In this document: positions 1,852 through 61,019 of the stretch, piece by piece
How positions within the stretch are numbered: the first letter of the stretch is position 1
Layout of the letters: each line of letters begins with the position of its first letter
Assembly (NCBI GenBank): GCA_016213405.1
Contig: JACRAM010000049.1
Span: forward strand, 1 to 64,000
Direction: 5' to 3'
Source of the DNA: Bacteroidota bacterium
GTDB taxonomy: Bacteria > Bacteroidota > Bacteroidia > Palsa-948
Length of the DNA stretch: 64,000 bases
Translations under genes and position numbers: made by a program
The notes under the pieces: model-generated
Database searches by the model: none
What the model saw: the letters and a program-made list of their open reading frames with translations, nothing else
Told to the model about the DNA's origin: nothing

Positions 1852-4800
1852 TTATCTAATCAAGCTCACATTTCCCTTCCTCACCGTTTCATTGCCTGTG
1901 ATGAAAGTTACTTTCATGTAATACACAAACACGGCTGTGTTCATCTGCTTGCCTTTGTATGTTCCATCCCAAAGAACAGTGATGTTGTCGGCTTCAAACA
2001 CTTTTTCTCCCCAGCGGTTGTAAATGATGAGCATGAATTCTTTTATGCATCCTGAATTCGGATAATAAACTTCCATCCTATCATTCTTGGTATCGCCATT
2101 GGGAGAAAATGCATCGGGTACAAACAACTGGTCATCGGCATAGCCGCAGTTAAGCGGTTCAACCATCACTGTAACCGTAACGCAAGCCGTATCTGAACAA
2201 TTGTTTGCATCGGTAACCGTAACGCAATATATAGTTGTTACAGCAGGATTAACAGTAATTGCTGAACTGTTTGCTCCGTTGCTCCAAGTGTAAGTTCCGC
2301 CTCCGGTTGCTGTAAGCGTTGTTGAACTTCCTGATGTGATAGTTACGTTTACACTTACATTAGCAGTGGGACCTCCTGTGGAAGTTACGGTTACAGTTGC
2401 TGTATTTGTACATCCGTTTGCATCGGTGATTGCAGCAGTATAATTTCCTGCGCCAAGCCCTGTTGCAGTTGAACTGTTTCCTCCAGACGGAGACCATGCA
2501 TACGTATAAGGCGATATTCCTCCACCCGCAAATACTGTTGCACTTCCATTATTGCCCGCACACGCAGTGGTTGTTGATGTTATATTGGAAGTTAAAGCCG
2601 TGGGCTGTGTAATAATAACTGTTTGAGTGTTTGTACATCCATTTGCATCAGTAACAGTGGCAGTATAATTTCCCGCGCTTAATCCTGTTGCAGCAGAAGT
2701 TGTTCCTCCGGATGGTGACCATGAAAAAATATAAGGTGATGTTCCTCCGCTGGCAGTGACAGATGCACTTCCGTTATTTCCGCCATTACATAAAATGTTT
2801 GTCTGATTAGAAAGTGAAATAATTGGTCCGCCAGATGAATTAATTGTTACTGTTGATGTTCCCGAACATCCGCTTGCATCAGTTACAGTCACAGTGTATG
2901 CACCTGCACTAAGTCCTGTTGCAATTGCATTTGTTCCACCGGATGGCGACCATGAATACGTATAAGGCGATGTTCCTCCTGTTGGAGTAACAGTAGCTGT
3001 TCCATTGCTGCTAAGACAAGCAGCAGGAGTTGATGTTACGCTCACAGTAAGCGCACCGGATGTTATAGTGACGGTTGCGGTTTGAACATTTCCACCAGAA
3101 ATGCAGACAGAAGAAGCATCACTGACAGTAACCGTGTAAGTACCCGAAGATAAACCTGTGGCTATTGCCGTAGTTTGTCCGCCCGGACTCCACGAATAAG
3201 TATAAGGTGCGCTTCCTCCAGTTACTGTAACAGTGGCAGAACTTGCAGCACAGGATCCGCTGGCGGAAACAGATACGTTCAATGAGTTGCAGCTTACACC
3301 GCTTGGAAAAGATGAAACGAAATTTTTTCCGCAGGCATAAAGCAAATTTCCGGGACCTAATTTTAAATCGTACACATCTCCGTTTGCAGGAATGAAAGTA
3401 ATTTTATTATAGTTAGTGTCGATCTGAAAAATAGTATCGTGAGAGCCGATGAAAATATTATCGCATTCATCCACTGCAATTCCTCCCCATGAAATTACAA
3501 GGCGGTCATACGAAGGAAAGCAGCAATAAACAGGTGGTGTTATCACCGCGCTGTCAATAGGCGCTCCTGTATTTTTGTTATACCTTTTTATTTTGGAACT
3601 GTTATAGGTGTATAAATAATTTCCGTTAACAGCAATGCCGTTCATTCCATTTGTTCCTGTAGTTCCGTTCACATAATTTATTCCGCTGATTTCATTCATC
3701 TGAAAATTACTCGGCACATTGTAAGTAACAGGAAATAATGCGCTTGCCGAAGTTTTAACCAACGTGTTATTTGCCATGGAACCGCTCTTCGAAAAACCCA
3801 TGAAACAATTTCCGGAATTATCGAGTGCAAGATTATCTACATCATCCAATCCCGCAGGAGACAGAACATTTACCGGGTTCATGCTGGTAAGAGTTGTATC
3901 TAAAATCGCGGCTTCATAAGAAGTATTCCATCCTGAACCGCCAATTACTCCCTGCTTTGTGCAACTGTTATAAGCAATCCGCCAAATCTCTTTCATATTT
4001 GGATTGCCCGGATATAAAATAATTTGCGAACCCACTGAATTTACTTTTATCATCTGGGCAGGCACATTGTTATTAAGATTAAAATTATATCCTTCTCCAA
4101 TGTAACTGCTTCCGCTGTTTGCATCCACTGCAAAATCACCATAGAGCCACATAGGTGTTGCGCTGTAAACCCATTGAATAGCACCCGCGCTGTTGAATTT
4201 TATTTCCTGTAAAGGATTGGAAGGGGAACCCTGCCCACCATACACATACACGTTACCTGCATAATCATAATCAATATCATAAGCGGAATTATATCCGGGA
4301 AAACTGGGGTTGGTAGTCCATGGGTCAATGATAATTGAAGCCCCATCACGACCTTCCCCATTCGGGAAGGAGAAGGAAACAACATTATTACTAATAGAAA
4401 ACGCAGCAGAGACAGTTTGATGATTGTTTTCATAAAAAGCTTCTGGTGCGTGGTCAATAAAATTTCCGAAAGAAGTTTCAATCCTGACATTTCCATCTAT
4501 ATCCGTTGCCAATCCTTTTACATCGGAATACTTCATCTTAATAAGAGAGGCATTTGCTCCGGAATGTAGTATGAGGGAATATTTTATTCCAGTTTTACCT
4601 TCAGGGAAAAAATATTCTACATCAATATTCGGATAAATATTTTTATAAATAATTTTCTTTACGGCAGATGCTTTGATAGTTGGATAAGTGAAATAACAGG
4701 ACGCGGCATCTTCAGAAATAATTTCCGCATCCGGATTGGCTCCCTCCCACTCCATCTGAACGAAGTGAGAAATCAATTTCGCAGCTTCTTCTTCTCCTTC

Positions 4801-5043
4801 ATTCTGTTTTTCATATTCATCATGGCGGTAAGTCAATCCTGTATTCGTAAAATATATCGCTACTCCTTCATTCACAACAGCATATTTAATGTGGCTGTTC
4901 TTCAGATTGTTCATTCCATCAAACTGACCTTTGTTTTCAATAAATACTTTTTGCTCAAAAGGTTTTGTCTGCCAGTTTTGAGAATGTACAATACATGAAA
5001 TGAAAAGAAGAAAAATAAATCCGGAAAGAGAAATAATTCTCAT
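1852..5043 (-). CDS. SprB-repeat protein with T9SS type B (gliding-motility-associated) C-terminus
   Basis: This is a 1063-residue secreted protein. The signal peptide ends at about residue 22 (IVHSQ). The N-terminal region begins QKVFIENKGQFDG, an opening typical of large Bacteroidota cell-surface proteins. A beta-propeller-like middle follows. Four SprB-type repeats (SPYTYSWSPSGG...GNYTVTVTDANGC) lie at about residues 595-880 with a spacing near 78 residues. The C-terminus (VPDAFSPNGD-KNDR, IYNRWGEKVFE, WDGTYKG) is the gliding-motility-associated sorting domain that directs type IX secretion and surface attachment. SprB-type repeats belong to the adhesin family of gliding bacteria. An element-like palindrome encodes part of residues 222-234 (FPNGEGRDGA). 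The next gene upstream ends 11 bp away, so the two are probably co-transcribed. Confidence 0.88.
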   Translation of the reverse strand: MRIISLSGFIFLLFISCIVHSQNWQTKPFEQKVFIENKGQFDGMNNLKNSHIKYAVVNEGVAIYFTNTGLTYRHDEYEKQNEGEEEAAKLISHFVQMEWEGANPDAEIISEDAASCYFTYPTIKASAVKKIIYKNIYPNIDVEYFFPEGKTGIKYSLILHSGANASLIKMKYSDVKGLATDIDGNVRIETSFGNFIDHAPEAFYENNHQTVSAAFSISNNVVSFSFPNGEGRDGASIIIDPWTTNPSFPGYNSAYDIDYDYAGNVYVYGGQGSPSNPLQEIKFNSAGAIQWVYSATPMWLYGDFAVDANSGSSYIGEGYNFNLNNNVPAQMIKVNSVGSQIILYPGNPNMKEIWRIAYNSCTKQGVIGGSGWNTSYEAAILDTTLTSMNPVNVLSPAGLDDVDNLALDNSGNCFMGFSKSGSMANNTLVKTSASALFPVTYNVPSNFQMNEISGINYVNGTTGTNGMNGIAVNGNYLYTYNSSKIKRYNKNTGAPIDSAVITPPVYCCFPSYDRLVISWGGIAVDECDNIFIGSHDTIFQIDTNYNKITFIPANGDVYDLKLGPGNLLYACGKNFVSSFPSGVSCNSLNVSVSASGSCAASSATVTVTGGSAPYTYSWSPGGQTTAIATGLSSGTYTVTVSDASSVCISGGNVQTATVTITSGALTVSVTSTPAACLSSNGTATVTPTGGTSPYTYSWSPSGGTNAIATGLSAGAYTVTVTDASGCSGTSTVTINSSGGPIISLSNQTNILCNGGNNGSASVTASGGTSPYIFSWSPSGGTTSAATGLSAGNYTATVTDANGCTNTQTVIITQPTALTSNITSTTTACAGNNGSATVFAGGGISPYTYAWSPSGGNSSTATGLGAGNYTAAITDANGCTNTATVTVTSTGGPTANVSVNVTITSGSSTTLTATGGGTYTWSNGANSSAITVNPAVTTIYCVTVTDANNCSDTACVTVTVMVEPLNCGYADDQLFVPDAFSPNGDTKNDRMEVYYPNSGCIKEFMLIIYNRWGEKVFEADNITVLWDGTYKGKQMNTAVFVYYMKVTFITGNETVRKGNVSLIR
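4340..4378 (-). repeat. GC-core palindromic element inside the SprB-repeat gene
   Basis: On the coding strand it reads CTTCCCGAATGGGGAAGG followed by a GGGGCTTC-type end. This is the same layout as the elements at 34.6, 45.9, 57.8 and 61.0 kb. It is in frame and encodes FPNGEGRDGA. Confidence 0.6.
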
Positions 5044-5054
5044 GATAATTTACT

Positions 5055-7085
5055 TTACCATGTCACAATTATTTTTCCGTCTGCGCCATTGGCACCGTTC
5101 CATGAACCGCCACCTGCACCGCCACCGCCAGCGCCTGTATTTGCAAGAGCGTTATAGACAGTAATAATTCCTCCTTGCCCTCCATCGCCACCGCCAATGC
5201 CTCCACCGCCACCACCACCTCCATAATATGAAGGTCCAGCAACTGTCATTCTCCCGCTGCCCCCTGCACCTCCGCCTCCACTTCCATTTCCTCCGTTATA
5301 ACTTGCAGCAGTAGCAGTAGCAAGCCCGGCTGTTCCTCCAGAACCGAGGGTGGTGTTCAAATAACCTCCGCTGCCCATTCCTCCTGTGAGGAGGTTTCCG
5401 CCTGTAGCTTGTATTAGTATCGTTCCAGTGCAGGCAGCTCCGGTAGAAAAACAAGAACCTGTGGCAGCAGTGCTTGTAGCATTAATACCTCCTGTGCCTA
5501 CTGTTATCTGGTAAACAGTTGCAGGAACCACCACATAAGTTCCTTCCGCATATCCTCCTCCTCCTCCTCCCGCGCCACCGGTATTAGCGCCAGAAGTTGT
5601 ACCATAAGCGCCACCTCCCCAAACAGCTATTTTAATTAAAGTAACACCTGCGGGTACGGTAAAAGTAGTTGGAGCTCCTGCTCCTAACATTCCGCTTGTT
5701 CCGGATGTAAGGTATAATTGCCAATTGGGAAAACAACTGCCACCAATGCTGCTGAGTGATTGCCAGCTTCCTTGTCCGGTGGCATCGGAAGTAAGCACTT
5801 TGTTTACCGCCTGATTGCCATCAACAATTTTTACGGTGGAGCCAGATGAACCATCCACTTCTAATGATGCTGCCGGTGTTATGGTGCCGATACCCACATT
5901 GCCTCCCTGGAATATTCCTGCATAATTATTTGTGGCGCCAGATTGTGTCTGAATAAATAATCCGTATGAATTTGTGATTCCGGCAGCTCCCAGATTTTGC
6001 ACGTTCAGTCCATAAATGTTGGAAGGTTTTATTCCAGACAATCCTGGAAGAGCAACCATCACTCCGCTGGCATTGGTAACAGTTCCAGCGCTTCCTGCCT
6101 GAGAATCAAATCTGAAATGTCCGCAATTTACATTGGCAATATTTATTCCTGCTCCCGGATTAGCGTTGGCTACTCCTGCAATTCCATACACAACTCCAAC
6201 ACTTGCGGAAGGAGAAAAAGTTGGCTGCGATTCCAGCCCTCCTGCTCCATCTCCGGAACCATTCAATGTACCGAAAAATCTTCCTAACCGCGCATTCCAG
6301 CTTGCCGATGTAACAGTCGCCAAAACATCAAGAGGATAAATTGGAATAGTGCGAATGCCTACATTACCTGAAGAGGTAATGCGCATTCTTTCTACATATG
6401 CCATATCCGCAGTCCCGGTTGAGAATGTAATGTCTGTAGGAATTGAACCTGCTGCAATGGTTCCGTTTGCTACTGCGTCTATCTGTGCTGTAATAATATA
6501 ATTCGAACCATCATAACCTGAAAACATGTATTTGCCAAGTTCGTCACCGTTAAGGATGGTAGTGAGAGCGCCAATAGTTCCTCTTGCCCTGCGGTTAATA
6601 ATAATTCCACCGAGGTCGGCTTGCAGATTTGTGACCCGCTCGTTTATTATATTTTTTTCGGTGGTGGCTAAAACATGCAATAAGGTAATAGCACTTGGGC
6701 TTGTTGTTCCGATGCCGACATTTCCACCCGATGGCTGCAAACAAAGAGAACGATAAGCGCCCGCAGTTGCATCCCAAACATCAATGAGTCCGTAACGGGA
6801 AGTTGCAGTAGCATTACCGTACAACCCCAATCGCAGTTTAAGCGCAGCAGCGCTTGCATCATAAGAAGTAACCTGAAAAATATTTTGCAACGCTGGAGCG
6901 GTAATGAGATTAGTTCCTTTTACATGAAGCATCACTCCTGTTTCAGCAGAAGAGCCATCGGTGTTGATGCCGATGTTCTGGGCAGAACAAGAAGCCCATC
7001 CAAAATCCTTCCCGAAGGGAAGGACTTTCAGGAGTGCAGGCGCAAAAAGAATTCCTGCTATGAGAATGATGATTTGTTTTTTCAT
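5055..7085 (-). CDS. Secreted tail-fibre-like protein with glycine-rich C-terminal domain
   Basis: A 676-residue protein. The N-terminus is a signal peptide whose C-region is interrupted by VLPFGKDFGWA, encoded by a palindromic element. The body holds several units of the type GNVGIGTTSP followed by LHV or LEV, found in phage tail fibres and in Bacteroidota surface proteins with tail-fibre-like stalks. No S74 endosialidase chaperone domain follows. Instead the last 230 or so residues form a glycine-rich domain (FTVPAGVTLIKIAVWGGGAYG, then long GGGG stretches, ending GADGKIIVTW). No T9SS sorting domain is visible. The gene sits 11 bp upstream of the SprB-repeat gene. A structural or adhesive surface role is likely; no enzymatic motif is seen. 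Confidence 0.75.
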   Translation of the reverse strand: MKKQIIILIAGILFAPALLKVLPFGKDFGWASCSAQNIGINTDGSSAETGVMLHVKGTNLITAPALQNIFQVTSYDASAAALKLRLGLYGNATATSRYGLIDVWDATAGAYRSLCLQPSGGNVGIGTTSPSAITLLHVLATTEKNIINERVTNLQADLGGIIINRRARGTIGALTTILNGDELGKYMFSGYDGSNYIITAQIDAVANGTIAAGSIPTDITFSTGTADMAYVERMRITSSGNVGIRTIPIYPLDVLATVTSASWNARLGRFFGTLNGSGDGAGGLESQPTFSPSASVGVVYGIAGVANANPGAGINIANVNCGHFRFDSQAGSAGTVTNASGVMVALPGLSGIKPSNIYGLNVQNLGAAGITNSYGLFIQTQSGATNNYAGIFQGGNVGIGTITPAASLEVDGSSGSTVKIVDGNQAVNKVLTSDATGQGSWQSLSSIGGSCFPNWQLYLTSGTSGMLGAGAPTTFTVPAGVTLIKIAVWGGGAYGTTSGANTGGAGGGGGGYAEGTYVVVPATVYQITVGTGGINATSTAATGSCFSTGAACTGTILIQATGGNLLTGGMGSGGYLNTTLGSGGTAGLATATAASYNGGNGSGGGGAGGSGRMTVAGPSYYGGGGGGGGIGGGDGGQGGIITVYNALANTGAGGGGAGGGSWNGANGADGKIIVTW
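6991..7030 (+). repeat. GC-core palindromic element in a signal-peptide coding region
   Basis: The plus strand reads GAAGCCCATC, then CCTTCCCGAAGGGAAGGACTT. It is almost identical to the intergenic copy at 60981-61019. On the minus coding strand it encodes residues 18-31 of the glycine-rich protein. Confidence 0.85.
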
Positions 7086-44166: not shown

Positions 44167-44174
44167 TACGCAAC

Positions 44175-45875
44175 ATGCAGGAAACCATTCTTATTCTTGA
44201 TTTCGGTTCGCAATACACGCAGTTGATTGCCCGTAAAGTGCGCGAGTTGAATGTTTACTGCGAGATTCATCCGTACACAATAGTTCGGAGTTTGGAGAAT
44301 GGAGTTGGGGGAAAATCCCTCTCCGAACTCCTGACTCCCAACTCCCAACTAAAAGGAGTGATTCTTTCAGGAAGTCCGTTTTCGGTTCGGCAGAAAAATT
44401 CTCCGCAACCCGATTTGAGCAGTATAAGAGGAAAGATTCCTCTGCTTGGTGTGTGTTATGGTGCACAACTGCTCGCACATCAATGTGGCGGAGAAGTTCA
44501 GCCATCGAAACATAGAGAATACGGAAGAGCAAATCTTTCTTTTGTGAATAATGATTCGCTTCTTTTCAAAAACATTTCTCTTAACTCGCAGGTGTGGATG
44601 AGCCACAGTGATACAATTGCATCGGCTCCTGATAATTTTGAGATTATCGCGAATACTTCTGATGTTAAGTATGCCGGCTTTCACATTAAGCCCGTAGGAA
44701 ACTTGCCCCGTAGGTCAGACGACCTACGGGGTGAATCCAACGGGCTGAAGGGAGAAAAAACATTTGGCATTCAATTTCATCCTGAAGTGTATCACACCAC
44801 CGAAGGACTAACTCTTCTGAAAAACTTTGTAGTGGATATTTGCAAATGCTCTCAATCGTGGACTCCTTCTTCTTTCATCGAAACAACTATTGCTGAACTC
44901 CAGCACAAATTAGGGAACGACAAAGTAGTGATGGCGCTTTCCGGAGGAGTAGATTCAACCGTTGCGGCAACATTGCTGCACAAAGCCATAGGGAAAAACC
45001 TCTTTTGCATTTTCGTGGATAATGGTTTGCTTCGCAAAGATGAATTCAAAAACGTGCTGCATTCGTATAAAGACATGGGCTTGAACGTGAAAGGAGTTGA
45101 TGCGAAAAAGTTTTTCTACAAAGCCTTGAAAGGAAAGAAAGAGCCCGAAGCAAAACGAAAAGCCATTGGCAAAACCTTCATCGAAGTGTTTGATAAAGAA
45201 GCGAAGAAGTTAGGAGCTATGAGTTCGGAGTTAGGAGTGAAAAGGAAAAAATCTTCGAACTCCCGACTCCGAACTCAGAACCAGATTAAATGGCTGGGGC
45301 AAGGGACTATTTACCCGGATGTGATAGAAAGCATTTCAGTGAAAGGTCCTTCTGCCACCATCAAATCACATCATAATGTGGGCGGGCTTCCAGCGAAAAT
45401 GAAAATGAAAGTGGTGGAACCGCTTAACTCGCTCTTTAAAGATGAAGTGAGAAGAGTGGGCAGAAAATTAGGTGTTACTGAAAACATTTTAGGAAGGCAT
45501 CCGTTCCCCGGACCGGGTTTAGGGATAAGAATTCTTGGAGACATAACAGAAGAAAAGGTACGAATCTTGCAAGAGGTTGACCATATTTACATCGAAGAAT
45601 TGAAAAGCGCAGGACTTTATAATCAGGTTTGGCAGGCTGGAGCAATTTTCTTGCCGATACAATCGGTGGGCGTAATGGGCGATGAACGTACGTATGAAAA
45701 TGTTATCGCTCTTCGCGCAGTAACTTCTACCGATGGAATGACTGCCGACTGGTGCCATCTGCCGTATGAATTTCTCTCAAAAGTCTCCAATGAAATAATT
45801 AATAAAGTGAAAGGAGTGAATCGTGTGGTATATGACATCAGTTCAAAACCGCCCGCAACAATTGAATGGGAATGA
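44175..45875 (+). CDS. guaA: GMP synthase, glutamine-hydrolysing, with three repeat-encoded insertions
   Basis: GuaA converts XMP to GMP with glutamine and ATP. I choose ATG 44175 ([20 protein letters not shown]). The glutamine amidotransferase domain has [11 protein letters not shown] (nucleophile Cys) and [11 protein letters not shown] (catalytic His and Glu). The ATP pyrophosphatase has [15 protein letters not shown], and the dimer domain [17 protein letters not shown]. At 566 residues it is about 40 longer than the 525-residue E. coli enzyme. Three stretches that homologues lack coincide with palindromic elements: residues about 36-58 ([20 protein letters not shown]), 171-190 ([18 protein letters not shown]) and 345-369 ([20 protein letters not shown]). 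All catalytic motifs remain intact and in frame, so the enzyme is probably functional. Confidence 0.97.
44282..44350. repeat. Heptad-arm hairpin element, insertion 1 in guaA
   Basis: The left arm agttcggagtttggagaatg is followed by gagttggggg. The right arm ctccgaactcctgactccca continues actcccaact. The arms are tandem 7-bp units (AGTTCGG-like) in inverted orientation. The element is in frame between the early strands of the amidotransferase domain. Confidence 0.92.
44689..44746. repeat. Nested palindromic element, insertion 2 in guaA
   Basis: The outer ends are agcccgt and acgggct; the inner hairpin is ccccgtaggtc-agac-gacctacgggg. It lies in frame, about nine codons before the catalytic FHPE motif. 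Confidence 0.92.
45209..45282. repeat. Heptad-arm hairpin element, insertion 3 in guaA
   Basis: The left arm agttaggagctatgagttcg is complemented by the right arm cgaactcccgactccgaact. It uses the same AGTTCGG family of units as insertion 1. It lies in frame just before [15 protein letters not shown]. Confidence 0.92.
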
Positions 45876-45880: not shown

Positions 45881-45940
45881 GAAGCCCATCCTACCTGCCC
45901 GTCCGGCAGACGGGAATCCTTCCCCAAGGGAAGGACTTTT
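45881..45940 (+). repeat. GC-core palindromic element with nested CCGGCAG hairpin
   Basis: It starts GAAGCCCATCCTACC. A nested palindrome tgcccgtccggcagacggga splits the usual spacer, then CCTTCCCCAAGGGAAGGACTT completes the element. It begins 5 bp after the guaA stop. The same nested form occurs at 57813. Confidence 0.9.
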
Positions 45941-45973
45941 AATTTCGCTTCTGTGAAGTTAGGAGTTAGAGTA

Positions 45974-47509
45974 ATGCTTCTTATTTTCTCCCTCCCTTTG
46001 GGAGGGCTGGGGTGGGCTCAGTCCCCTACAATAAAAAAATCAGATAAGATTGAAACGATAGAAGGGAAAAAATTCTATATACATTCTGTAGAAAAAGGAC
46101 AAACCCTTTACTCCATTGCAAAAACTTACGGAACAACCGTGGATATTGTTCTCTCCAATAATCAGGATGCAATTGACGGACTCAAGGCAGGAGACAAACT
46201 AAAAATCCCTTTCATAGGAAACACTGAAGCAATTAAAAAAGAGATTGAAAAAAAGGAAATCACTTCTGCTCAAACAAAAACTCCACTGGATACAACACAG
46301 AAAAGAACCGCCATACTTGACCCGAAAAGTTTCAAAGAAATTTCTGTTCCCGTTCAAAAGAAAGATACTTCCAGGTTTCTGTCCCTTCGGGACTCACTTA
46401 CTTCAGATAGTTTAATTGTTGATGAGAACATACAGGTTGCTCTTTTTCTCCCGCTCTCGCTGGCAATGATTAATAATATAGATGTTTGGAAAATTGCGCA
46501 GGGCGATGAAAAAATTCCGGAGGAAACAAAAATTGGCATTGAGTTTTATGAGGGAATGAAAATGGCGTTTGATTCCCTGAAAAAAACAGGATTCAAAGGG
46601 CACCTTCATGTGTATGATTCCAATCTTGATTCAACAGGATTCGTTAAACTGATGAAGAAGCCCGAATTGAAGGAAATGGATTTGCTCATTGGTCCGCTCT
46701 ATGGAAAACGGTTTGAAACAGTGCTGAAGTTTGCTAAAGAATACAACATTAATATTGTTTCTCCAACATTACAAGGCAATAATATGCTGATGGGAAATCC
46801 GAACGTGAGCAAGGTTACTCCTTCCTACGCCACGCAGGCAGATGAGCTGGCAAAATATGTGGCGGGCAACTATGCGGGGCAAAATATCATTGTGTTTAAC
46901 AGCGCAAATCCAAAGGACAAACCTTATCTGAACACGTTCAAGAAAACTGCAAACGCCATCCTTCAGAAATCAAATTCCGACACGGTGAAAGAAGTAACAT
47001 TTTCCACGCTGAAAAATTTCATAAGTAAAACCAAACCGAACATCATTGTGATTCCGAGCACCAGCCAGCCTTTTGTTATTGAAGCGGTGAATAAACTATT
47101 TCTTGATGAGCAGGAAAACAAGGACAGTATCATTGTCTTCGGACTGAGTAATTTTCAGGATATGGAAAGTTTGGATTATGGTTATCTCAACGCGCTTCAT
47201 ACCATGGTTTCTTCTTACAATTTTGTTGACTACACTCATCCGCAGACAAAAAATTTCATTCTCAAATACAGAGATGAATTCAAGACAGAACCCACTCAAT
47301 ATGTTTTTTCAGGATTTGATGTGGGATGTTTTTACTTGAGCGGATTGAAAAAATACGGAAGCGCCATGCAGCGCAAACTTCCTGAACTAAAACACAAAGG
47401 AATTCAAACCGAGTTCAGTTTCTTTCAGTCCGATTTCAACAGCGGCTATGAAAACAAAGGCGTGGGCATTATGAAGTTTGAAAATTACACTTACACGAGG
47501 GTGAAATAA
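45974..47509 (+). CDS. Secreted LysM plus periplasmic-binding-fold protein
   Basis: I choose ATG 45974, preceded by AGGAG at 8 bp, over the upstream ATG at 45866 inside a palindromic element. The 511-residue product has a signal peptide whose C-region LPLGGLGWAQ is encoded by another element. A LysM domain (YIHSVEKGQTLYSIAKTYGT, then LKAGDKLKIP) binds peptidoglycan. After a low-complexity linker, residues about 150-480 form a type 1 periplasmic-binding fold (VALFLPLSLAMINNID, GIEFYEGMKMAFDSLKKTGF, DLLIGPLYGKRFETVLKFA). It resembles LysM-linked, ABC-type-binding-like proteins of Bacteroidota found next to guaA. A role in cell-wall-linked sensing or assembly is likely, not classic transport; no permease is nearby. 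Confidence 0.85.
   Translation: MLLIFSLPLGGLGWAQSPTIKKSDKIETIEGKKFYIHSVEKGQTLYSIAKTYGTTVDIVLSNNQDAIDGLKAGDKLKIPFIGNTEAIKKEIEKKEITSAQTKTPLDTTQKRTAILDPKSFKEISVPVQKKDTSRFLSLRDSLTSDSLIVDENIQVALFLPLSLAMINNIDVWKIAQGDEKIPEETKIGIEFYEGMKMAFDSLKKTGFKGHLHVYDSNLDSTGFVKLMKKPELKEMDLLIGPLYGKRFETVLKFAKEYNINIVSPTLQGNNMLMGNPNVSKVTPSYATQADELAKYVAGNYAGQNIIVFNSANPKDKPYLNTFKKTANAILQKSNSDTVKEVTFSTLKNFISKTKPNIIVIPSTSQPFVIEAVNKLFLDEQENKDSIIVFGLSNFQDMESLDYGYLNALHTMVSSYNFVDYTHPQTKNFILKYRDEFKTEPTQYVFSGFDVGCFYLSGLKKYGSAMQRKLPELKHKGIQTEFSFFQSDFNSGYENKGVGIMKFENYTYTRVK
45988..46019 (-). repeat. GC-core palindromic element in a signal-peptide coding region
   Basis: It reads CTCCCTCCCTTTGGGAGGG then CTGGGGTGGGCTC, in opposite orientation to the copy at 45881. 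It encodes SLPLGGLGWA, ending right at the predicted signal-peptidase site. Confidence 0.9.
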
Positions 47510-49577: not shown

Positions 49578-49621
49578 ATTTACATCATAACTCATAACAA
49601 AACAAGCATGGCTTTACACTA

Positions 49622-49816
49622 AGGTAAGGTTGTTTGCTAAGCAGGTAAGGTTGTTTGCTGAGCAGGTGAGGTTGTTTGCTGAGCAGGTGAGGTTGTTTGC
49701 TGAGCAGGTGAGGTTGTTTGCTGAGCAGGTGAGGTTTATTCGTAATCAGGTAGGGTTTATTCAGACCAGTTCTTGGGTTATTCGTAAGCAGGTATGGGTT
49801 ATTGCTGAGCAGATTT
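49622..49816. repeat. Minisatellite of nine degenerate 21-bp units
   Basis: The core unit is aggttgtttgctgagcaggtg; units 2-5 are nearly identical and units 6-9 diverge (toward tgggttattcgtaagcaggta). The length is a multiple of three, so both strands are open (LSKQPHL heptads on minus, LFAEQVR on plus). Neither frame has a convincing start or promoter. I treat it as non-coding, with coding possible. Confidence 0.8.
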
Positions 49817-51394: not shown

Positions 51395-53344
51395 ATGAAG
51401 GTTACTCTAAAGGAAATACAACTCCTGCTCATTCGTCTTTCCATTGCGCTGCTCACCTACCCTATCTGCAAAACACTTTTCTATCTTTTCAATTACCATT
51501 ATTTCTCTGATGTATCGGTGGGAGATTTTCTATCCATTTTGTTTTTCGGATTGAGGTTTGATGTTTCTGCTTTAGTATTGATGAATGTTCCGTTCACGCT
51601 TCTGCACATTATTCCATTTGGTTTTACAAAAAAGAAGTGGTATCAACTGGTTTTAAAAACTGTTTTCCTGACCGTAAACGGAATCGCCATTCTTGCCGAT
51701 TGCGTTGACCTTGAATATTACAAATTCACACTCAAGCGGACTACCTCAGATTTTTTTGATTTGTTTGGGCTTGGCTCTGATATTTCTTCCCTGCTTCCAC
51801 AATACATAAAAGATTTCTGGTATGTGGTATTGATTGCAGCAACGCTGATTATATTTATTTCATGGCTGTATAATAAAACAACAAAGTTCGGAGTTCGGAG
51901 TTCGGGAGAAAGTAATACTGGATTCAACTCCCAACTCCGAACTCCCAACTCCCAACTAATTGCGAGATTGATTTCCTGGATTATTCTGAATTCTGCGTTA
52001 ATCGGGATAATGATTATCGGCTTCAGAGGAGGATTACAGATGCGCCCCATCATGACCATCAACGCATCGGAATATGTTTCGGCAAAAAATATTCCGCTCA
52101 TTATCAATACTCCTTTCTCTATCATTAAAAGCTACGGACTGGAAGAACTTGAAGATAAGAAATATTTTCCGGAAGAAGAACTTCTTAAACATTTTAATCC
52201 TATCCATCAACCATTAACCATTAGCCATCAACCATCATCAAATGTATTTATCCTCATCATGGAAAGTTTTTCCAAAGAATATACTTCTCTCGGAGGAAAA
52301 AAAAGTTACACTCCTTTTCTCGATTCTTTGATGAATGAAAGCATGGTGTTTGACAATGCATTTGCTAATGGGAAAAAATCGATTGAAGGAATTCCGGCTG
52401 TGCTTGCCAGCCTGCCCGCACTTATGAACGAATCCTTTATTACTTCAACTTACTGTGGCAATCGCTTCAACTCTCTTTCAAACACATTAAGAAGCAAAGG
52501 ATATTCGTCCGCATTTTTTCACGGAGGAACCAACGGCACTATGGGCTTTGATGCTTTTTGCGGTTCAGCAGGATTTGATAAATACTATGGCAGATATGAA
52601 TACAACAATGATAAAGATTATGATGGCGATTGGGGAATCTGGGATGAGCCGTTCCTGCAATATGCTGAAAAGAATGTGAGCCGGATGAAGCAACCCTTTC
52701 TTGCGGCATTGTTTTCTCTTACTTCGCATCATCCGTTTACAATTCCTGAAAAATATCAAACGCAATTCACAGGAGGTGAACTTCCGATTTTAAAGAGCGT
52801 GCAGTACGCTGATTACTCGCTGAAAAAGTTTTTTGAATCCGCTTCAAAAGAAAAATGGTTTGACAGCACGCTGTTTGTCATCACGGCTGACCATGCAGGT
52901 CCATCGGAAGATAATGTTTACAGCAACAGCGCTGGAGGTTTTGAAATTCCAATTGTCTTTTACCAACACAACAGTTCTTTCAAAGGAATAAATCACAAAG
53001 TCACCCAGCAGATTGACATCATGCCAACTATTTTGAATTACCTGAATTACAATTCATCCTTTTTTTCATTTGGAAACAATGCGCTTGATACAATTCAAAC
53101 GGGCTATGCTGTAAATTTCATTAATGATGTTTACCAGATTTTTCAGAATGATTATCTTTTGCAGTTTGACGGAAGAAAAACAATCGCTTTGTACAATTAC
53201 AAAACCGATTCACTTCTGAAAAATAACCTTCATGAGCAAACTTCAAAAGTTTTTAAAACTTTTGAAGTTTCAATGGAAGCAAAACTGAAAGCAATTATAC
53301 AGACCTATCATCACGCAATGATTGCCAACAAACTTACTGAATGA
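51395..53344 (+). CDS. LTA-synthase-like membrane sulfatase / phosphoethanolamine-type transferase
   Basis: A 649-residue protein. About five N-terminal membrane segments precede an extracytoplasmic alkaline-phosphatase-fold domain from residue 280 on. Visible motifs are NVFILIMESFSKEYTSLGG (metal-binding Glu), ANGKKSIEGIPAVLASLP (likely nucleophilic Ser), SAFFHGGTNGTMGFDAF and FVITADHAGPS (metal-binding Asp and His). Members add glycerol phosphate or phosphoethanolamine to envelope polymers; the substrate here is unknown. A hairpin element adds residues 163-188 between membrane segments (GVRSSGESNTGFNSQLRTPN). A one-arm array encodes HQPLTISHQP near residue 275. A box TATCTTTA lies 10 bp upstream of the start. 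Confidence 0.92.
   Translation: MKVTLKEIQLLLIRLSIALLTYPICKTLFYLFNYHYFSDVSVGDFLSILFFGLRFDVSALVLMNVPFTLLHIIPFGFTKKKWYQLVLKTVFLTVNGIAILADCVDLEYYKFTLKRTTSDFFDLFGLGSDISSLLPQYIKDFWYVVLIAATLIIFISWLYNKTTKFGVRSSGESNTGFNSQLRTPNSQLIARLISWIILNSALIGIMIIGFRGGLQMRPIMTINASEYVSAKNIPLIINTPFSIIKSYGLEELEDKKYFPEEELLKHFNPIHQPLTISHQPSSNVFILIMESFSKEYTSLGGKKSYTPFLDSLMNESMVFDNAFANGKKSIEGIPAVLASLPALMNESFITSTYCGNRFNSLSNTLRSKGYSSAFFHGGTNGTMGFDAFCGSAGFDKYYGRYEYNNDKDYDGDWGIWDEPFLQYAEKNVSRMKQPFLAALFSLTSHHPFTIPEKYQTQFTGGELPILKSVQYADYSLKKFFESASKEKWFDSTLFVITADHAGPSEDNVYSNSAGGFEIPIVFYQHNSSFKGINHKVTQQIDIMPTILNYLNYNSSFFSFGNNALDTIQTGYAVNFINDVYQIFQNDYLLQFDGRKTIALYNYKTDSLLKNNLHEQTSKVFKTFEVSMEAKLKAIIQTYHHAMIANKLTE
51885..51958. repeat. 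Heptad-arm hairpin element inside the sulfatase gene
   Basis: The left arm is three tandem agttcgg units; the right arm is aactcccaactccgaactcc continuing caactcccaact. It is the same unit family as guaA insertions 1 and 3. It is in frame in the loop before the last membrane segment. Confidence 0.92.
52202..52240. repeat. Single-arm heptad array (CCATTAA units) in the sulfatase gene
   Basis: The units ccatcaa, ccattaa, ccattag, ccatcaa, ccatc follow each other at 7-bp steps. They encode HQPLTISHQPS at the junction between membrane and catalytic domains. Confidence 0.7.
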
Positions 53345-53437: not shown

Positions 53438-54382
53438 ATGAAGAAAAAAATTCTTTTCATAATTAATCCCATCTCTGGTGTTGGCAGGCACAGAACTGTT
53501 GAAAGATTGATTGACGAAAGACTAAACAGGACTATTTTCGATTATGAACTTGCTTACACGAAAGCATCAAAACATGCTATTGAACTGAGCAAACAGGGCG
53601 CAGAAGAAAATTTTGAAATCATTGTGGCGGTAGGCGGTGATGGCTCTGTGAATGAAGTGGGAAGAAGTTTAGTGGATGTCGGTCGGGATTTAAAATCCCG
53701 ACCAGCGCTTGCTATTCTTCCCTGCGGTTCAGGAAACGGAACGGCAAGACATTTAGATATTCCTATGAACCTGGAGAAAGCCATGCAGGTCATCAATCAA
53801 CATAAAGTTACAACCATTGACACCTTCAAAGTAAATGATGAAACAGTAATTAATGCTGCAGGAATTGGTTTTGCCGCGCACATCGCTCACGAATTTTCCA
53901 AATTCAAAAAGCGCGGCTTCAGAAATTACCTCAAGATAGCCGTGCGCGATTCCTTGAAATATAAATCACAGATGTGTGAGATTGATGCCCTCCCCCAACC
54001 CCTCCCATTAGGAGGGGAGATAAGTTCTGCAAATCCTCCCCAATGGGGAGGACATAGGAGGGGCTTCTTTTTCATCATTGACATCTGCAACGGAACACAG
54101 TGGGGAAACAACGCGGTGATTGCTCCTCATGCAGAAAACGATGACGGACTGCTGGATTTATGTGTGGTAAAAGATTTCCCTTTTAGAAATTTCCCGCTGA
54201 TGGCTGCCCGCCTGTTCACGCATTCCATTCACCGTTCAAAGTTTGTAGAGATAATTAAAGTGAAAGAAGTTACTATCCGCCAGGAAAAAACAATTGCCCA
54301 TATTGACGGAGAGCCATACAATATGGGCAATGAACTCAGGATAAAGATTAATCCTCTATCGCTGAAAGTTATCGTTCCTTGA
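53438..54382 (+). CDS. Diacylglycerol kinase-family lipid kinase with two repeat-encoded insertions
   Basis: A 314-residue cytoplasmic kinase of the DagK/YegS/sphingosine-kinase fold. The opening KKKILFIINPISGVGRHRTV and the nucleotide motif VAVGGDGSVNEV are the family signatures; ILPCGSGNGTARHL and APHAENDDGLLDLCVV follow. The likely reaction is ATP-dependent phosphorylation of diacylglycerol or a similar lipid. Residues about 81-90 (DVGRDLKSRP) are encoded by a simple palindrome. Residues about 183-210 (LPQPLPLGGEISSANPPQWG) are encoded by an inverted pair of GC-core elements. Both stretches are absent from typical members, but the frame is kept. It converges with the Met/Cys-rich gene, 3 bp apart. 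Confidence 0.93.
   Translation: MKKKILFIINPISGVGRHRTVERLIDERLNRTIFDYELAYTKASKHAIELSKQGAEENFEIIVAVGGDGSVNEVGRSLVDVGRDLKSRPALAILPCGSGNGTARHLDIPMNLEKAMQVINQHKVTTIDTFKVNDETVINAAGIGFAAHIAHEFSKFKKRGFRNYLKIAVRDSLKYKSQMCEIDALPQPLPLGGEISSANPPQWGGHRRGFFFIIDICNGTQWGNNAVIAPHAENDDGLLDLCVVKDFPFRNFPLMAARLFTHSIHRSKFVEIIKVKEVTIRQEKTIAHIDGEPYNMGNELRIKINPLSLKVIVP
53681..53703. repeat. Simple palindrome in the lipid kinase gene
   Basis: It reads ggtcgggattt-aaaatcccgacc with 11-bp arms and no loop. It is in frame and encodes GRDLKSRP. Confidence 0.75.
53986..54067. repeat. Inverted pair of GC-core elements in the lipid kinase gene
   Basis: The first reads gccctcccccaacccctccc then attaggagggga; the second reads atcctccccaatggggagga then cataggaggggc. 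They are convergent and share the GCCCCTCC ends. The composite is in frame. Confidence 0.9.
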
Positions 54383-55477: not shown

Positions 55478-55606
55478 TACAAAATACATTTCTATTTCTC
55501 CTTTGTTCTTGGCGGGGAAAGCCCCTCTCTAACTCTCCCCAAAGGGGAGAGAACCATTTTTATTTTCAACAAAATACATTTTTATTTTTCCTTTATTCTT
55601 TGCCTC
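55478..55606. repeat. Duplicated 3' end of the cyclase gene around a GC-core element
   Basis: The 36 or so bases ttctacaaaatacatttcta... and ttcaacaaaatacattttta... (continuing to ccttt-ttctt-gc) occur on both sides of the element at 55519-55554. They encode AKNKGEIEMYFVE and AKNKGKIKMYFVE on the minus strand. Several mismatches show that the duplication is not new. Confidence 0.8.
55519..55554. repeat. GC-core palindromic element flanked by the duplication
   Basis: It reads aaagcccctctctaactctc then cccaaaggggagagaacc. It has the AGCCCC end and the CCCC-AAA-GGGG core of the family. Confidence 0.88.
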
Positions 55607-55831
55607 AACTTCTCCTCTATAAATAAAATCTAATGATGTTCCTCCTCCTTTGGAGGAGGTTAGGAGGAGGTTATGGGTTGCTTCAGAAATATTAATCTTT
55701 CCTGCTTCGCCTGATGATTCCATGCGTGAAGCGGTGTTCACCGTATCCCCCCAAATGTCATAAGCGAATTTTTTGTCACCTACTACACCCGCAGTAACGG
55801 GACCGGTGTGAATGCCGATTCTTAACTGCCA
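55529..55831 (-). pseudogene. C-terminal remnant of the adenylate/guanylate cyclase domain
   Basis: This frame encodes WQLRIGIHTGPVTAGVVG, FAYDIWGDTVNTASRMES and YRGEVEAKNKGKIKMYFVE, the second half of a class III cyclase catalytic domain. The first half ends in another frame at 55822. The break falls at the edge of a hairpin element (55828-55892). Inside the remnant, a GC-core element encodes LLLTSSKGGGTS, and after a stop the last 13 or so codons occur again at 55478-55515 (AKNKGEIEMYFVE). Confidence 0.82.
55638..55683. repeat. GC-core palindromic element inside the cyclase remnant
   Basis: It reads gttcctcctcctttggagga then ggttaggaggaggttatggg. It is in frame with the remnant and encodes LLLTSSKGGGTS, residues that other cyclases lack. 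Confidence 0.82.
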
Positions 55832-57438
55832 GTAATCGGTAATCGGTTACTGGTATTTGACTGATTACCGTTCACCGATAACCGATAACCATTCATCATC
55901 CACTCCTGAATTTCCATCGCTGCTTTCACAACATCCATTGCATTGGCTGAATTAGCAGTGGGCAATCCTCCAGCGCACATGTAAGCATCTCCGATAGTTT
56001 TTATTTTCTCGATGGGGTACCTGGAAATTATTTCATCAAACTTCTTGAAAAGAAAATCCAGCTCACTGACTAACTCTTCTGCAGAAAGTTTTTCAGCAAT
56101 GTTTGTGAATCCTTTGAAGTCAGTGAACATTACGGTGACGCTTTCGTAATGCATTGCTGTGGCTTTTCCGTTTGCTTTAAGTTCTCTCGCGGTTTCGGCA
56201 GGAAGAATATTCAGAAGAAGTTTTTCGCTCTTTCTTCTCTCTTTTATAATGAACAGAGAAAGTAATACAACTATCAACAGACCACTGACCACTGACCATA
56301 TTATTATCTTCTGTCTTTTAACTTCTGATTTCTGTAATTCACCTTCTTTATTCAACAATGTTATCTGCTGTTCTTTTTTCTCTGTTTCATACTTGGTTTG
56401 CATTTCAGTGATCTGCTTGCTGGATTCTTCATTGAGCAAACTGTCTTTTGTATCGGAATATAATTTATGATATTCATACGCTTTCTGATATTCTCCTTTC
56501 TTTTCATGCAGACGGGAAAGAAGTTCATAAGCTGCCTTAACATTATCGTTAAATGAAATTTCTTTTGCAGCAGCTAAACTACTGTCCGCATATTCAATTG
56601 CTTTTTCATACTCGCCTGCCGACATATATATAGTTGAAAGGTTCAGATATACATTGGAGAGTCCTTGCTTATCGCTCTCTACACTATAAATATTCAATGC
56701 CTTTAAGTTAAAATCAATCGCTTGTTTGGTATCATTCATACGATAATAGATATCGCCCATTTCCCAAAGACAAGCAGCAATACTCGGCTGGTGTTCCAGT
56801 TTTTCAAAAGAAGTCAATGCTTCCTGAAAACATTTGATGGCTTCATTATATTTTTTCTTAGGTTTATAAATATCTCCTATGCTAAGTAAACATTGTGCAA
56901 TATCAAACCTGTCATCGTCATTCGGCTTTTTGGAAAATAATTCTCTGAACTTTGCAAGAGATTTGAGATTGTATTCAAGGGCTTTATCAATTTGGTTCAT
57001 CATCGCATAAACAGCACCGATATTCCCATAAGCGCCCGCCACTCCGTGCTCATCTCCAATCTCTTCTCTGATTTTCAATCCGCGAAGATTCATTTCAAGA
57101 CTTTTTTCATAATTGCCCATGTTAAAATATATGTTTGACATTAATATCACACTTCTCGAAAGTCCTTTTTTGTAATTGAGTTTTTCGGCAAGTTGAATTG
57201 ATTCTTCACAATAGTTTTTTGATTTGCCGATATCCACAGGCAGGTAATTCCAGCAAATCTGGTTGAGAAGGTTTACCTTATTAGTATCTTCCTGAGGCAT
57301 GGCAGCAAGCACTTTCCGGAGAGAATCAATATTCCGGTTTTGTGAAAAGGAAAACGAATGAATAATGAATAATGCTCCGAACAACAGGAGGAGTTCCTTC
57401 GGGAAATAATAGATAAGTATGTAAATTATTTTCTTCAT
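55822..57438 (-). CDS. TPR-adenylate/guanylate cyclase, truncated within the catalytic domain
   Basis: The frame encodes 538 residues. A signal-like N-terminus (LLLLFGALFIIHSFSFSQN) is followed by about seven TPR units (residues about 60-330, such as YEKSLEMNLRGLKIREEIGD and EYEKAIEYADSSLAAAKEI). A coiled coil (YETEKKEQQITLLNKEGELQ) and a membrane helix (IIIWSVVSGLLIVVLLSLFI) come next. The class III cyclase domain starts TVMFTDFKGFTNIAEKL (metal-binding Asp) and KTIGDAYMCAGG (second Asp). It stops after SNRLPITGS, encoded by a hairpin element; the rest of the domain continues in another frame (55529-55831). Intact proteins of this type make a cyclic nucleotide in response to TPR-mediated signals. 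As written, it is probably inactive unless the frame is corrected. Confidence 0.85.
   Translation of the reverse strand: MKKIIYILIYYFPKELLLLFGALFIIHSFSFSQNRNIDSLRKVLAAMPQEDTNKVNLLNQICWNYLPVDIGKSKNYCEESIQLAEKLNYKKGLSRSVILMSNIYFNMGNYEKSLEMNLRGLKIREEIGDEHGVAGAYGNIGAVYAMMNQIDKALEYNLKSLAKFRELFSKKPNDDDRFDIAQCLLSIGDIYKPKKKYNEAIKCFQEALTSFEKLEHQPSIAACLWEMGDIYYRMNDTKQAIDFNLKALNIYSVESDKQGLSNVYLNLSTIYMSAGEYEKAIEYADSSLAAAKEISFNDNVKAAYELLSRLHEKKGEYQKAYEYHKLYSDTKDSLLNEESSKQITEMQTKYETEKKEQQITLLNKEGELQKSEVKRQKIIIWSVVSGLLIVVLLSLFIIKERRKSEKLLLNILPAETARELKANGKATAMHYESVTVMFTDFKGFTNIAEKLSAEELVSELDFLFKKFDEIISRYPIEKIKTIGDAYMCAGGLPTANSANAMDVVKAAMEIQEWMMNGYRLSVNGNQSNTSNRLPITGS
55828..55892. repeat. Heptad-arm hairpin element at the cyclase frameshift
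   Basis: The left arm ccagtaatcggtaatcggtt continues actgg; the right arm is gattaccgttcaccgataac continuing cgataacc. Units are 7 bp (ggtaatc, cgataac). About 61 bp separate the two coding frames, a length that is not a multiple of three. Confidence 0.88.
56276..56300. repeat. Single-arm heptad array in the cyclase membrane segment
   Basis: The string caacagaccactgaccactg continues acca, at 7-bp steps; the same words form one arm at 41470-41546. It encodes WSVVSGLL in the membrane helix. Confidence 0.5.
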
Positions 57439-57548: not shown

Positions 57549-58760
57549 CTAATGGAATTTCTTCTTCCCTTCTTTCACCATTTTCTTCAGCATCACGCTG
57601 GGGCGATAGCGGTCTTCGGCATATTCGGAATATAAATTTTCAAGTCCTGTGAGAACTTTGTCAATTCCCAATTCATCTGCCCAGTGTAAAAGCCCTTTGG
57701 GATAATTCACGCCCTTTGTCATGGCAAGATCAATGTCTTCTTTGGTGGCAACTCCGTAATACAAGGCATCTGCCGCCTCATTAATGAGCATTACAAGTAT
57801 GCGAAAAAATATAGCCCCACCTACCTGCCCGTCCGGCAGGCGGGAATCCTCCCCATTGGGGAGGACTTGTATTACTTTCTCCCTCGCTAACGGAGAGGGT
57901 TGGGGTGGGGCTTCATAATTGTAATAACCCCTGCCCGATTTTTTTCCGAAATGTTTTGCTTCAAAGAGGAGCCGCTGCGTGAGTGATGGTTTATATTTGG
58001 GGTCAAAGAAAAATTGTTTCCAGATTGTTTCGGTCACCGTGTAATTGATATCGTTGCCAATCATGTCCATCAACTCGAAGGGTCCCATTTTAAATCCACC
58101 CAGTTCTTTCATCGCTCCATCAATAGTAGAAAAGTCAGCTAATCCTTCTTCATAGATCCGTATTGCTTCCCCGTAAAACGGACGTGCCACACGGTTCACA
58201 ATAAACCCCGGAGTATCTTTCGCTATCACAGGAGTTTTTTCCCACGATTCCATCAACAGCTTTATCTTCGGTGCAATGTTTTTATCGGAAGAAATGCCGG
58301 GGATGATCTCTACCAATGGCATGACGGGAGCAGGATTGAAAAAATGAATGCCTATCACTCTTTCGGGTTTGGCGCAGGCGGAGGCGATGGAAGTAATGGA
58401 GAGCGAAGAAGTGTTGGATGCCAGCACGCAGTTGCCGTACACGATTTTCTCCATGTCGGAAAAAACCTTCTGCTTCACTTCAAGATTCTCAACTATGGCT
58501 TCGATGACAAGCCCGCAATGCCTGAAATCAGAAAGCGACAGGGCAAAATGAATTCCGGAGAAAATATTTTTTGCTTCATCGGCAGATATTTTTCCTTTCT
58601 CTGTTAATTTTTTCAGCGTGGCATCAAGATTTGCTTTTGCCCGCTCAAGCGCGAATGAATCGCTGTCAAACAAAATCACTTTGTGTCCTGCCGCTGCCGC
58701 CACCTGGGCAATGCCGCTTCCCATCGCTCCTGAACCTACTATTCCAATTGTTTCCTTCAT
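57549..58760 (-). CDS. 3-hydroxyacyl-CoA dehydrogenase (3-hydroxybutyryl-CoA dehydrogenase type) with repeat-encoded insertion
   Basis: An NAD-dependent dehydrogenase that oxidises 3-hydroxyacyl-CoA in fatty-acid or related catabolism, cytoplasmic. The Rossmann motif is GIVGSGAMGSGIAQVAAAAG; SNTSSLSITSIA and GIHFFNPAPVMPLVEII carry the catalytic region, and FIVNRVARPFYGEAIRI and GPFELMDMIG form the C-terminal domain. The 403 residues exceed most relatives. The excess matches about 34 residues (APPQPSPLAREKVIQVLPNG, then EDSRLPDGQVGG) at 282-316, encoded by an inverted pair of GC-core elements in frame. The gene starts 1 bp after the polymerase stop, so the two are co-transcribed. Confidence 0.92.
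   Translation of the reverse strand: MKETIGIVGSGAMGSGIAQVAAAAGHKVILFDSDSFALERAKANLDATLKKLTEKGKISADEAKNIFSGIHFALSLSDFRHCGLVIEAIVENLEVKQKVFSDMEKIVYGNCVLASNTSSLSITSIASACAKPERVIGIHFFNPAPVMPLVEIIPGISSDKNIAPKIKLLMESWEKTPVIAKDTPGFIVNRVARPFYGEAIRIYEEGLADFSTIDGAMKELGGFKMGPFELMDMIGNDINYTVTETIWKQFFFDPKYKPSLTQRLLFEAKHFGKKSGRGYYNYEAPPQPSPLAREKVIQVLPNGEDSRLPDGQVGGAIFFRILVMLINEAADALYYGVATKEDIDLAMTKGVNYPKGLLHWADELGIDKVLTGLENLYSEYAEDRYRPSVMLKKMVKEGKKKFH
57813..57914. repeat. Inverted pair of GC-core elements inside the dehydrogenase gene
   Basis: The left member reads agccccacctacc, a nested tgcccgtccggcaggcggga, then cctccccattggggaggact. The right member reads tctccctcgctaacggagag then ggttggggtggggctt. 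The ends AGCCCCACC and GGTGGGGCTT are inverted. The composite keeps the frame. Confidence 0.93.
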
Positions 58761-58761
58761 A

Positions 58762-60171: not shown

Positions 60172-60194
60172 TCGCAAATAAGAAACATATAATA

Positions 60195-60980
60195 ATGAAG
60201 CGTTCATTTTTGTTGGCATCCTTATCAATTTGTTTCCTGTTTTCTCAGGCGGGAACTATTGTTGTTGAAGGAAAATATCAAAACAAAAACATCTATATCC
60301 AAAATGCTTACTCTCAGGCAGGAGTAGGTTTTTGCGCATATGCTGTTTATGTGAATGGAAAATTAACCAACGATGAAGTGAATTCAACTGCATTTGAAAT
60401 CGACCTGTCACAACTGCAGTTAAAATACGGGCAAGATATTACCATAAAAATTTTTCACAGAGATGGATGCACTCCCCCGCGTGTTTTAAATCCGGATGCG
60501 CTGAAACCCATTCCTACGTTTGAAGTAACAGCCATGAAAATGACAAACGATGGACTTATTACCTGGACGGCAAAAAACGAAGGCGGCTCGCTCCCCTATA
60601 TTGTTGAACAGTTCCGCTGGAACAAATGGGTGAATGTGGGAGAAATTCAGGGCGTAGGAACTCCTGGCGAACACGATTATAAATTTTTGGTTACAGCGCT
60701 TCACTCGGGAGAAAATAAATTCCGGCTGAAGCAAGTTGGCTACCAGGCAAAATATTCTGCTGAAGTAAAAATAGTTTCCAGCACTCCCCGGTGCATTTTT
60801 TCCACCTCCAAAAGCAGCAAGCAGATTGATTTCACCTGCGGAACATTGTATGAGGTGTATGATTATTACGGAAGCGTGGTGAAAAAAGGATATGGAACAA
60901 GAGTGGATATTGCCAACCTGCAAAAAGGCGGCTACTATGTTTGCTTTGACAACAGCATTGGCGAGTTGAAAAAGAAATAA
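60195..60980 (+). CDS. Secreted protein of unknown function
   Basis: A 261-residue protein with signal peptide (SFLLASLSICFLFSQAGT). The mature N-terminus (VVEGKYQNKNIYIQNAYSQA, VGFCAYAVYVNGKLTNDEVN) and the middle (TFEVTAMKMTNDGLITWTAK, LPYIVEQFRWNKWVNVGEIQ) form two beta-sandwich-like domains. The C-terminus has CGTLYEVYDYYGSVVKKGYG, like the strand pattern of a sorting domain but not a typical one. I know the pattern as a conserved Bacteroidota secreted family but no function. A promoter is visible upstream and a palindromic element follows the stop directly. Confidence 0.8.
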   Translation: MKRSFLLASLSICFLFSQAGTIVVEGKYQNKNIYIQNAYSQAGVGFCAYAVYVNGKLTNDEVNSTAFEIDLSQLQLKYGQDITIKIFHRDGCTPPRVLNPDALKPIPTFEVTAMKMTNDGLITWTAKNEGGSLPYIVEQFRWNKWVNVGEIQGVGTPGEHDYKFLVTALHSGENKFRLKQVGYQAKYSAEVKIVSSTPRCIFSTSKSSKQIDFTCGTLYEVYDYYGSVVKKGYGTRVDIANLQKGGYYVCFDNSIGELKKK

Positions 60981-61019
60981 GAAGCCCATCCTAAATCCTT
61001 CCCGAAGGGAAGGACTTGT
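60981..61019 (+). repeat. GC-core palindromic element between convergent genes
   Basis: It reads GAAGCCCATCCTAAA then CCTTCCCGAAGGGAAGGACTT, the clearest full-length copy. It starts right after the stop of the secreted protein and lies 5 bp from the NUDIX gene's stop. It could act as a bidirectional terminator. Confidence 0.92.

Follow-up and report, generated by a model that had tools for sequence, protein, structure and literature searches.

Short AGCCC-Ended Palindromic Elements of a Bacteroidota Genome as Probable Non-Autonomous Derivatives of In-Frame DUF559 Endonuclease Elements

Introduction

Short GC-rich palindromes with AGCCC ends are scattered between and within the genes of a Bacteroidota genome (GenBank assembly GCA_016213405.1, 3.65 Mb). 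A 64,000-nucleotide stretch of it, positions 1 to 64,000 of contig JACRAM010000049.1 (G000:C49:1-64000), was analyzed and is referred to here as the window. These short elements are probably non-autonomous derivatives of mobile elements that carry a DUF559 endonuclease of the EDxHD/Vsr type and insert into genes in frame, without splicing. The palindromes are associated with DUF559 genes, their ends and in-frame state are directly readable, empty sites exist in related genomes, the end types are shared between short and long forms, and copy number tracks the DUF559 elements. Enzymatic mobilization, comprising cutting by the nuclease, copying and action in trans, is what we infer from these patterns in the DNA.

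Many bacterial genomes hold orphan GC-rich palindromes whose origin awaits explanation, as illustrated by the CGTC-tagged repetitive extragenic palindromic (REP) sequences, for which no dedicated transposase is apparent (PMC3733652). Here, one abundant group of palindromes is tied to a specific enzyme family, so far listed as a "domain of unknown function". Element-derived peptides, as well as whole nuclease domains, lie inside essential proteins, including ArgS, LeuS, IleS, GMP synthase and RecG. The addition of protein segments by selfish DNA can be tested on this route, which also accounts for odd insertions that trouble annotation, alignments and structure work.

The AGCCC Unit

The AGCCC elements with a GC core form a genuine family, and among the hairpins of the window they are the abundant kind. 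The unit opens with a head, AGCC[CT]-[AC][AT]-CC, and 4 further bases; a hairpin follows, in which a pyrimidine arm of 8 bases and its purine complement enclose a loop of 3 bases. Two types are distinguished. Type A has a head ending in CCTAAA, an arm that begins with T and the tail CTT, while type B has a head ending in CCCCAA, an arm that begins with C and the tail AGA or AGT. Copies per genome were counted with one degenerate unit pattern, and the same pattern read backwards served as control. The pattern matches 118 places (57+61) in the genome of the window and the reversed control matches 0. A perfect stem of 8 bp is present in 58 of 98 distinct units, which were chosen without requiring pairing; shuffling of the 3' arms lowers this number to 10.7 (maximum 18). 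The stems have been kept by paired changes, and stem classes vary among copies while pairing is retained. In the same 98 units, the heads are AGCCC.., the tails CTT or AGA/AGT and the foot mostly TAAA or CCAA-like, and the GT[AG]G tetranucleotide, which marks REP sequences, is absent from the hairpin foot.

Many units are paired as inverted doublets of 71-244 bp. In 844 kb of own-genome stretches, 38 doublets were classified, giving 25 A/B, 13 B/B and 0 A/A; half of this sample was selected for containing hits, so no genome-wide density is claimed. Named records with exact AGCCC units are mostly from Bacteroidota, e.g., Flavobacteriaceae and Chitinophagaceae, and Rfam gave 0 matches above the gathering score in the window.

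DUF559 Genes and Their Hairpin Ends

A search with PF04480 gave 43 DUF559 matches in seven congeneric genomes, many of them within open frames of 700-1300 aa, and the domain was found in frame inside RecG, RecJ, MutS, LeuS, IleS and MetH. The active-site columns are invariant (E, D, E.DG..H). The profile matches 3hrl, an endonuclease-like protein (E 3e-30), and 3r3p, a "Mobile intron protein" (E 7e-5), which we take to be I-Bth0305I. A DUF559 gene has been assigned to the EDxHD homing endonuclease family (PMC9403480), and a Caulobacter DUF559 protein has been studied as Vsr-like (PMC12907096).

In the RecG gene of the window's own genome (L022), the DUF559 domain lies in frame between AGCCC-like units. 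The protein has 858 aa, versus 700-727 contiguous aa in G001, G005 and G006. It is one open frame in which Pfam finds DUF559 and RecG domains and no intein, no intron model having been run on the DUF559 loci. In four congeners (G001, G003, G005, G006) the site lacks both the DUF559 domain and the units, so both arrived there together. In RecJ, DUF559 occupies one shared site in G001, G003 and G005, which would fit homing or descent. The DUF559-bearing RecJ and MutS genes of L182, L194 and L200 also have additional short palindrome insertions at other loops.

The association was measured by searching for hairpins with all-pyrimidine arms (>=6 bp) within 170 bp of each gene, with 2000 random places as control. 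Within the genus, such hairpins stand on both sides of 21/30 DUF559 genes and on at least one side of 28/30; the random places gave 6/2000 and 122/2000, respectively. In a phylum-wide draw, DUF559 was present in 109/198 genomes, with hairpins on both flanks at 16/29 loci and on at least one at 27/29. AGCCC units lie on both sides of an in-frame DUF559 in G004, G029, G052, G134, G192, G268, G315 and G350, which span several families, and in G192 and G415 the only copy of the AGCCC pattern in the genome lies 20 bp from DUF559. In L157 (Flavobacterium sp.) and L128, an IleS-like open reading frame (ORF) contains DUF559 in frame together with the unit types of the window. The latter record (CALPKO020000129.1) is filed under Bdellovibrio yet carries this Bacteroidota-type insertion, possibly through mis-binning or transfer. 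Beyond the phylum, plasmid records of Cyanobacteriota, Deinococcota and Pseudomonadota have this layout at some of their DUF559 genes (L259, L260, L261) and lack it at others; phage records gave two weak DUF559 matches.

The polarity of the ends and the copy number of the units extend this link. Read from upstream to downstream of the DUF559 gene, the ends are B..A in 11 cases, B..B in 8, A..A in 1 and A..B in 0. Genomes with an AGCCC-ended DUF559 have 118 (G000, the window's own), 16 (G003), 21 (G004) and 58 (G005) copies of the pattern, versus 4, 3 and 4 in G001, G002 and G006, which are without one. The split is complete, 4 versus 3 genomes, with a chance of 1 in 35. The initial annotation had looked to an enzyme encoded elsewhere in the genome, a view that is supported, and the associated enzyme is this DUF559 endonuclease.

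Insertion Inside Genes

In the window, hairpins of various kinds interrupt coding sequence at 6993, 44688-44750, 53238, 53681, 53986 and 57813-57911. An earlier figure of at least ten in coding regions holds roughly when all hairpin kinds are counted; the proposed copy at 4340 is a weak match only, may be ordinary coding sequence, and was left out of the AGCCC family. A coding-score census of the 844 kb sample placed 31/77 AGCCC elements (~40%) in frame inside genes, against 67% of random 80-bp places, and a looser first count gave 53/112. Host proteins recognized by eye from the reading frame include ArgS, biotin carboxylase, TpiA, AspS, RNase HII, ArgC and MutS; host gene names given anywhere in this text without a Pfam call rest on such reading. 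Type A units inside genes usually translate as [KQE]VLPxG[KE]DLG[GW]A, a peptide also found at DUF559 ends in other families. At 37-110 bp, the inserts leave no room for an intron, and no sign of an intein or intron was seen in the host genes.

Orthologous loci of six congeners were aligned to compare occupied and empty sites, with flanks of 70-80% identity that blur the exact element ends. Empty orthologous sites were found, in agreement with the view of these palindromes as mobile, and the GMP synthase gene (guaA), a DAGK-like ORF and RecG each show an in-frame insertion with empty orthologs. The comparison with in-frame insertion by Rickettsia palindromic elements, drawn at the outset, is upheld by these three genes.

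Proposed Mechanism and Alternatives

The full element, as we propose it, would comprise an upstream type B unit, a DUF559 (PF04480) coding sequence of roughly 110-150 codons and, downstream, a type A or B unit in inverted orientation. The whole is stop-free in one frame, and can thus reside in a host gene and be translated with it, neither an intron nor an intein being involved. The nuclease would cut or nick at the target or at the element ends, and repair would copy the element in, with homing at allelic sites and rarer jumps to new sites. Loss of the internal nuclease would leave doublets of 75-170 bp, and additional loss single units, both short forms then depending on the nuclease in trans. 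Copies inside genes would persist where a protein loop tolerates the peptide.

Several points weigh against this proposal. The association alone is no proof that DUF559 mobilizes the short copies, since the palindromes could be landing sites. The congeneric DUF559 loci are partly orthologous (RecJ x3, MutS x2), so that their counts are not fully independent, and copy numbers were contrasted across seven genomes only. At a few DUF559 genes no hairpins could be detected, and the AGCCC-ended DUF559 genes of the own genome (RecG, RluA-like) have partly decayed ends. Comparison of interiors traced no short doublet to a particular DUF559 parent. No target-site duplication is visible at guaA, at 61.0 kb or at RecG, where the flanks are only 70-80% identical.

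The landing-site alternative takes the palindromes as independent mobile or target sequences, with DUF559 elements inserting into doublets that already exist. The same layout of unit, DUF559 and inverted unit would be expected from it, and doublets do greatly outnumber DUF559 genes. However, the RecG site is free of both DUF559 and units in four congeners, the ends are oriented non-randomly with respect to the gene (B..A 11 times, A..B 0 times), and the sole copies in G192 and G415 adjoin DUF559. DUF559 genes with quite different end families are hairpin-ended likewise. We therefore regard the alternative as unlikely. Spread without any enzyme, through slippage during replication, template switching or gene conversion, with the hairpins kept as terminators or structure, would explain the single and nested units, the compensatory changes between the 53238 hairpin and its counterpart in G006, and the copies directly 3' of stop codons (60983). 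It sits badly with a defined family of fixed heads, tails and pair architecture at more than 100 scattered sites, for which empty counterparts exist and which is tightly linked to a nuclease gene, and appears very improbable.

The remaining alternative is that a Y1 HUH transposase with its gene elsewhere moves the doublets, as REP doublets forming hairpins (REPINs) are by REP-associated tyrosine transposases (RAYTs). Inverted doublets of hairpin units are REPIN-like, and Y1_Tnp matches number 8 in the own genome, most with hairpin pairs of their own, and 33 in the seven congeneric genomes. However, pyrimidine-arm hairpins flank 0/30 tested Y1 loci of the genus within 170 bp, G001 has AGCCC copies yet no Y1 gene, the Y1-linked hairpins differ in sequence, and the units are without the GTAG foot. 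A Y1/RAYT enzyme was rejected as the driver of the AGCCC family on the flank result and on G001, and this is the least probable of the explanations weighed. The suggestion of a REP-associated transposase is thus unsupported for the main kind of palindrome, and fits one minor kind, the hairpin at 53238, which has a match beside the Y1 gene of L016. Two Y1 loci have AGCCC units ~670-880 bp away. Most Y1 genes of the genus (L009-L016, L087-L103) are single and bear their own inverted hairpin pairs (CCACGACCTTTAGGTCGTGG, CCCCGACATTTATGTCGGGG), unrelated to AGCCC; the Y1-flank families in the own sample are too few for good BLAST counting.

Derivation of the short elements from DUF559 elements accordingly remains the reading we prefer. 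A wider proposition may be drawn from the sequence comparisons, that DUF559 elements are an unrecognized bacterial mobile class, with a Vsr/EDxHD-type nuclease between inverted hairpin ends, in frame in housekeeping genes, self-spreading, and mobilizing their palindromic derivatives in trans, and that many GC-rich REP-like repeats of various phyla stem from them. On this proposition, we see the case as evenly balanced.

Elements of the Window, Site by Site

The AGCCC elements listed initially are present, and this kind is found at 6993, 34589/34665, 45883, 53986, 55520, 57813 and 60983; all coordinates that follow are on the forward (+) strand. A single A unit (AGCCCATCCAAAATCCTTCCCGAAGGGAAGGACTT) at 6992-7028 falls within the N-terminal region of ORF 5055-7085(-), where its minus strand reads in frame as KVLPFGKDFGWAS. 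An inverted AGCCC doublet with a 44-bp spacer (units 34589+ and 34665-) occupies 34588-34697, between ORFs 34158-34595(-) and 34713-35519(+). The doublet at 45882-46019 comprises an A unit with a nested 21-bp hairpin (CCTGCCCGTCCGGCAGACGGG), a spacer and a B unit. At this locus, G001 has a similar element, G002 and G005 have degenerate remnants, and G003, G004 and G006 have other sequence. Its right unit (45960-46020) can be read as the beginning of the following gene, hydrophobic and resembling a signal peptide (MLLIFSLPLGGLGWAQ), which may be an exaptation. A B/A doublet at 53985-54066 lies in frame in ORF 53438-54382, which carries DAGK_cat and YegS_C; the doublet is shared with G005, a different hairpin takes its place in G003, and the site is empty in G001, G002, G004 and G006. 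A degenerate doublet (AGCCCCTCTCTAACTCTCCCC.. and ..CCTCCTCCTTTGGAGGAGG) spans 55516-55672.

The doublet at 57812-57913, with a nested hairpin as at 45883, lies in frame in ORF 57549-58760(-), by inspection 3-hydroxyacyl-CoA dehydrogenase-like. Two congeners have other palindromes there, so the same loop has been hit more than once. The same nested 21-bp hairpin, CCTGCCCGTCCGGCAG[AG]CGGG, stands at the same internal position in the A units of both doublets (45895-45914, 57825-57844), which suggests that the modified unit itself was copied. A single A unit at 60982-61018 lies directly 3' of the stop codon of ORF 60195-60980, and five congeners have no copy at that place.

The initial annotation had treated about thirty elements of three kinds as one population. 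Perfect hairpins in the window number 37 at a weak cut-off versus ~14 in first-order Markov simulation, and 15 versus ~3 at a strong one; about 15 are therefore solid, and the remainder includes chance hairpins. The kinds belong to unrelated families. A low-copy palindrome family accounts for 44688-44750, an in-frame insertion of 20 codons in the GMP synthase ORF 44139-45875, which carries Pfam GATase and GMP_synt_C. By alignment to 1gpm, the insert occupies the turn that precedes GIQFHPE; it adds exactly 60 bp and has a clean empty site in 6/6 congeners. The AAACTTCAAAAGTTTTTAAAACTTTTGAAGTTT hairpin at 53236-53272, in ORF 51395-53344, belongs to the kind found beside the L016 Y1 gene. The same site in G006 holds this hairpin (53238-53270) with compensatory changes on both arms, a pattern to be expected from template switching or from replacement of the element. 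A GGTCGGGATTTAAAATCCCGACC palindrome at 53679-53705, in the DAGK-like ORF, is common to G006, and five congeners are 18 nt shorter there. An intergenic inverted pair at 44028-44102 (GACCCCGAAGG..CCTTCGGGGTC, with a GGATGTTTATAGA core) resembles, by eye only, the Y1 gene flanks in L011.

Other repeats were observed as well. Positions 55677-56484 recur with 70-82% identity at more than 10 sites of the own genome and at many of G006, and apparently represent an expanded family of cyclase-type paralogs. Arrays of a 21-bp tandem repeat (seven codons) occupy 49601-49768 and 42813-42917.

Comparison with Known Systems

REP-like repeats in general have been described for Bacteroidota (PMC6006769, PMC3733652, PMC12306157), which limits the initial claim of novelty for the phylum; REP counts are available (PMC12306157), and Y1 subclasses 1.2 and 2.6 occur there (PMC6006769). 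Our literature search, in which the DUF559 literature covered was small, found no account of the AGCCC family or of the DUF559-palindrome link.

Among known systems, REP sequences and REPINs with a RAYT (TnpA_REP) are similar in their short hairpin units, inverted doublets and high copy number, and in-gene REP copies have been reported (PMC3733652, PMC6006769). The AGCCC units differ in having no GTAG/CGTC foot and no unit-bounded Y1 gene, in lying inside genes in ~40% of cases, and in their DUF559 partner. The CGTC-tagged REPs, also known from Bacteroidetes, are likewise palindromic and some are intragenic; they "apparently lack a dedicated transposase" (PMC3733652), their tag is different, and no DUF559 link has been reported for them. 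Rickettsia palindromic elements share the in-frame palindromes in protein genes, but apparently have other sequences and belong to another phylum, whereas here an endonuclease-bearing full form exists. Miniature inverted-repeat transposable elements (MITEs) are also short, have inverted ends, and descend by internal deletion from a full element that shares their genomes. In the present elements, the partner is a PD-(D/E)XK-type nuclease and not a DDE transposase, and each end is itself a hairpin; no target duplication was seen, between flanks whose 70-80% identity blurs the ends. EDxHD homing endonucleases (I-Bth0305I, 3r3p) are alike in matching the DUF559 profile and in residing at conserved places in conserved genes. 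The difference is that here introns and inteins are absent, the host protein includes the translated nuclease, the inverted ends are hairpin units, and a population of short derivatives accompanies the full form.

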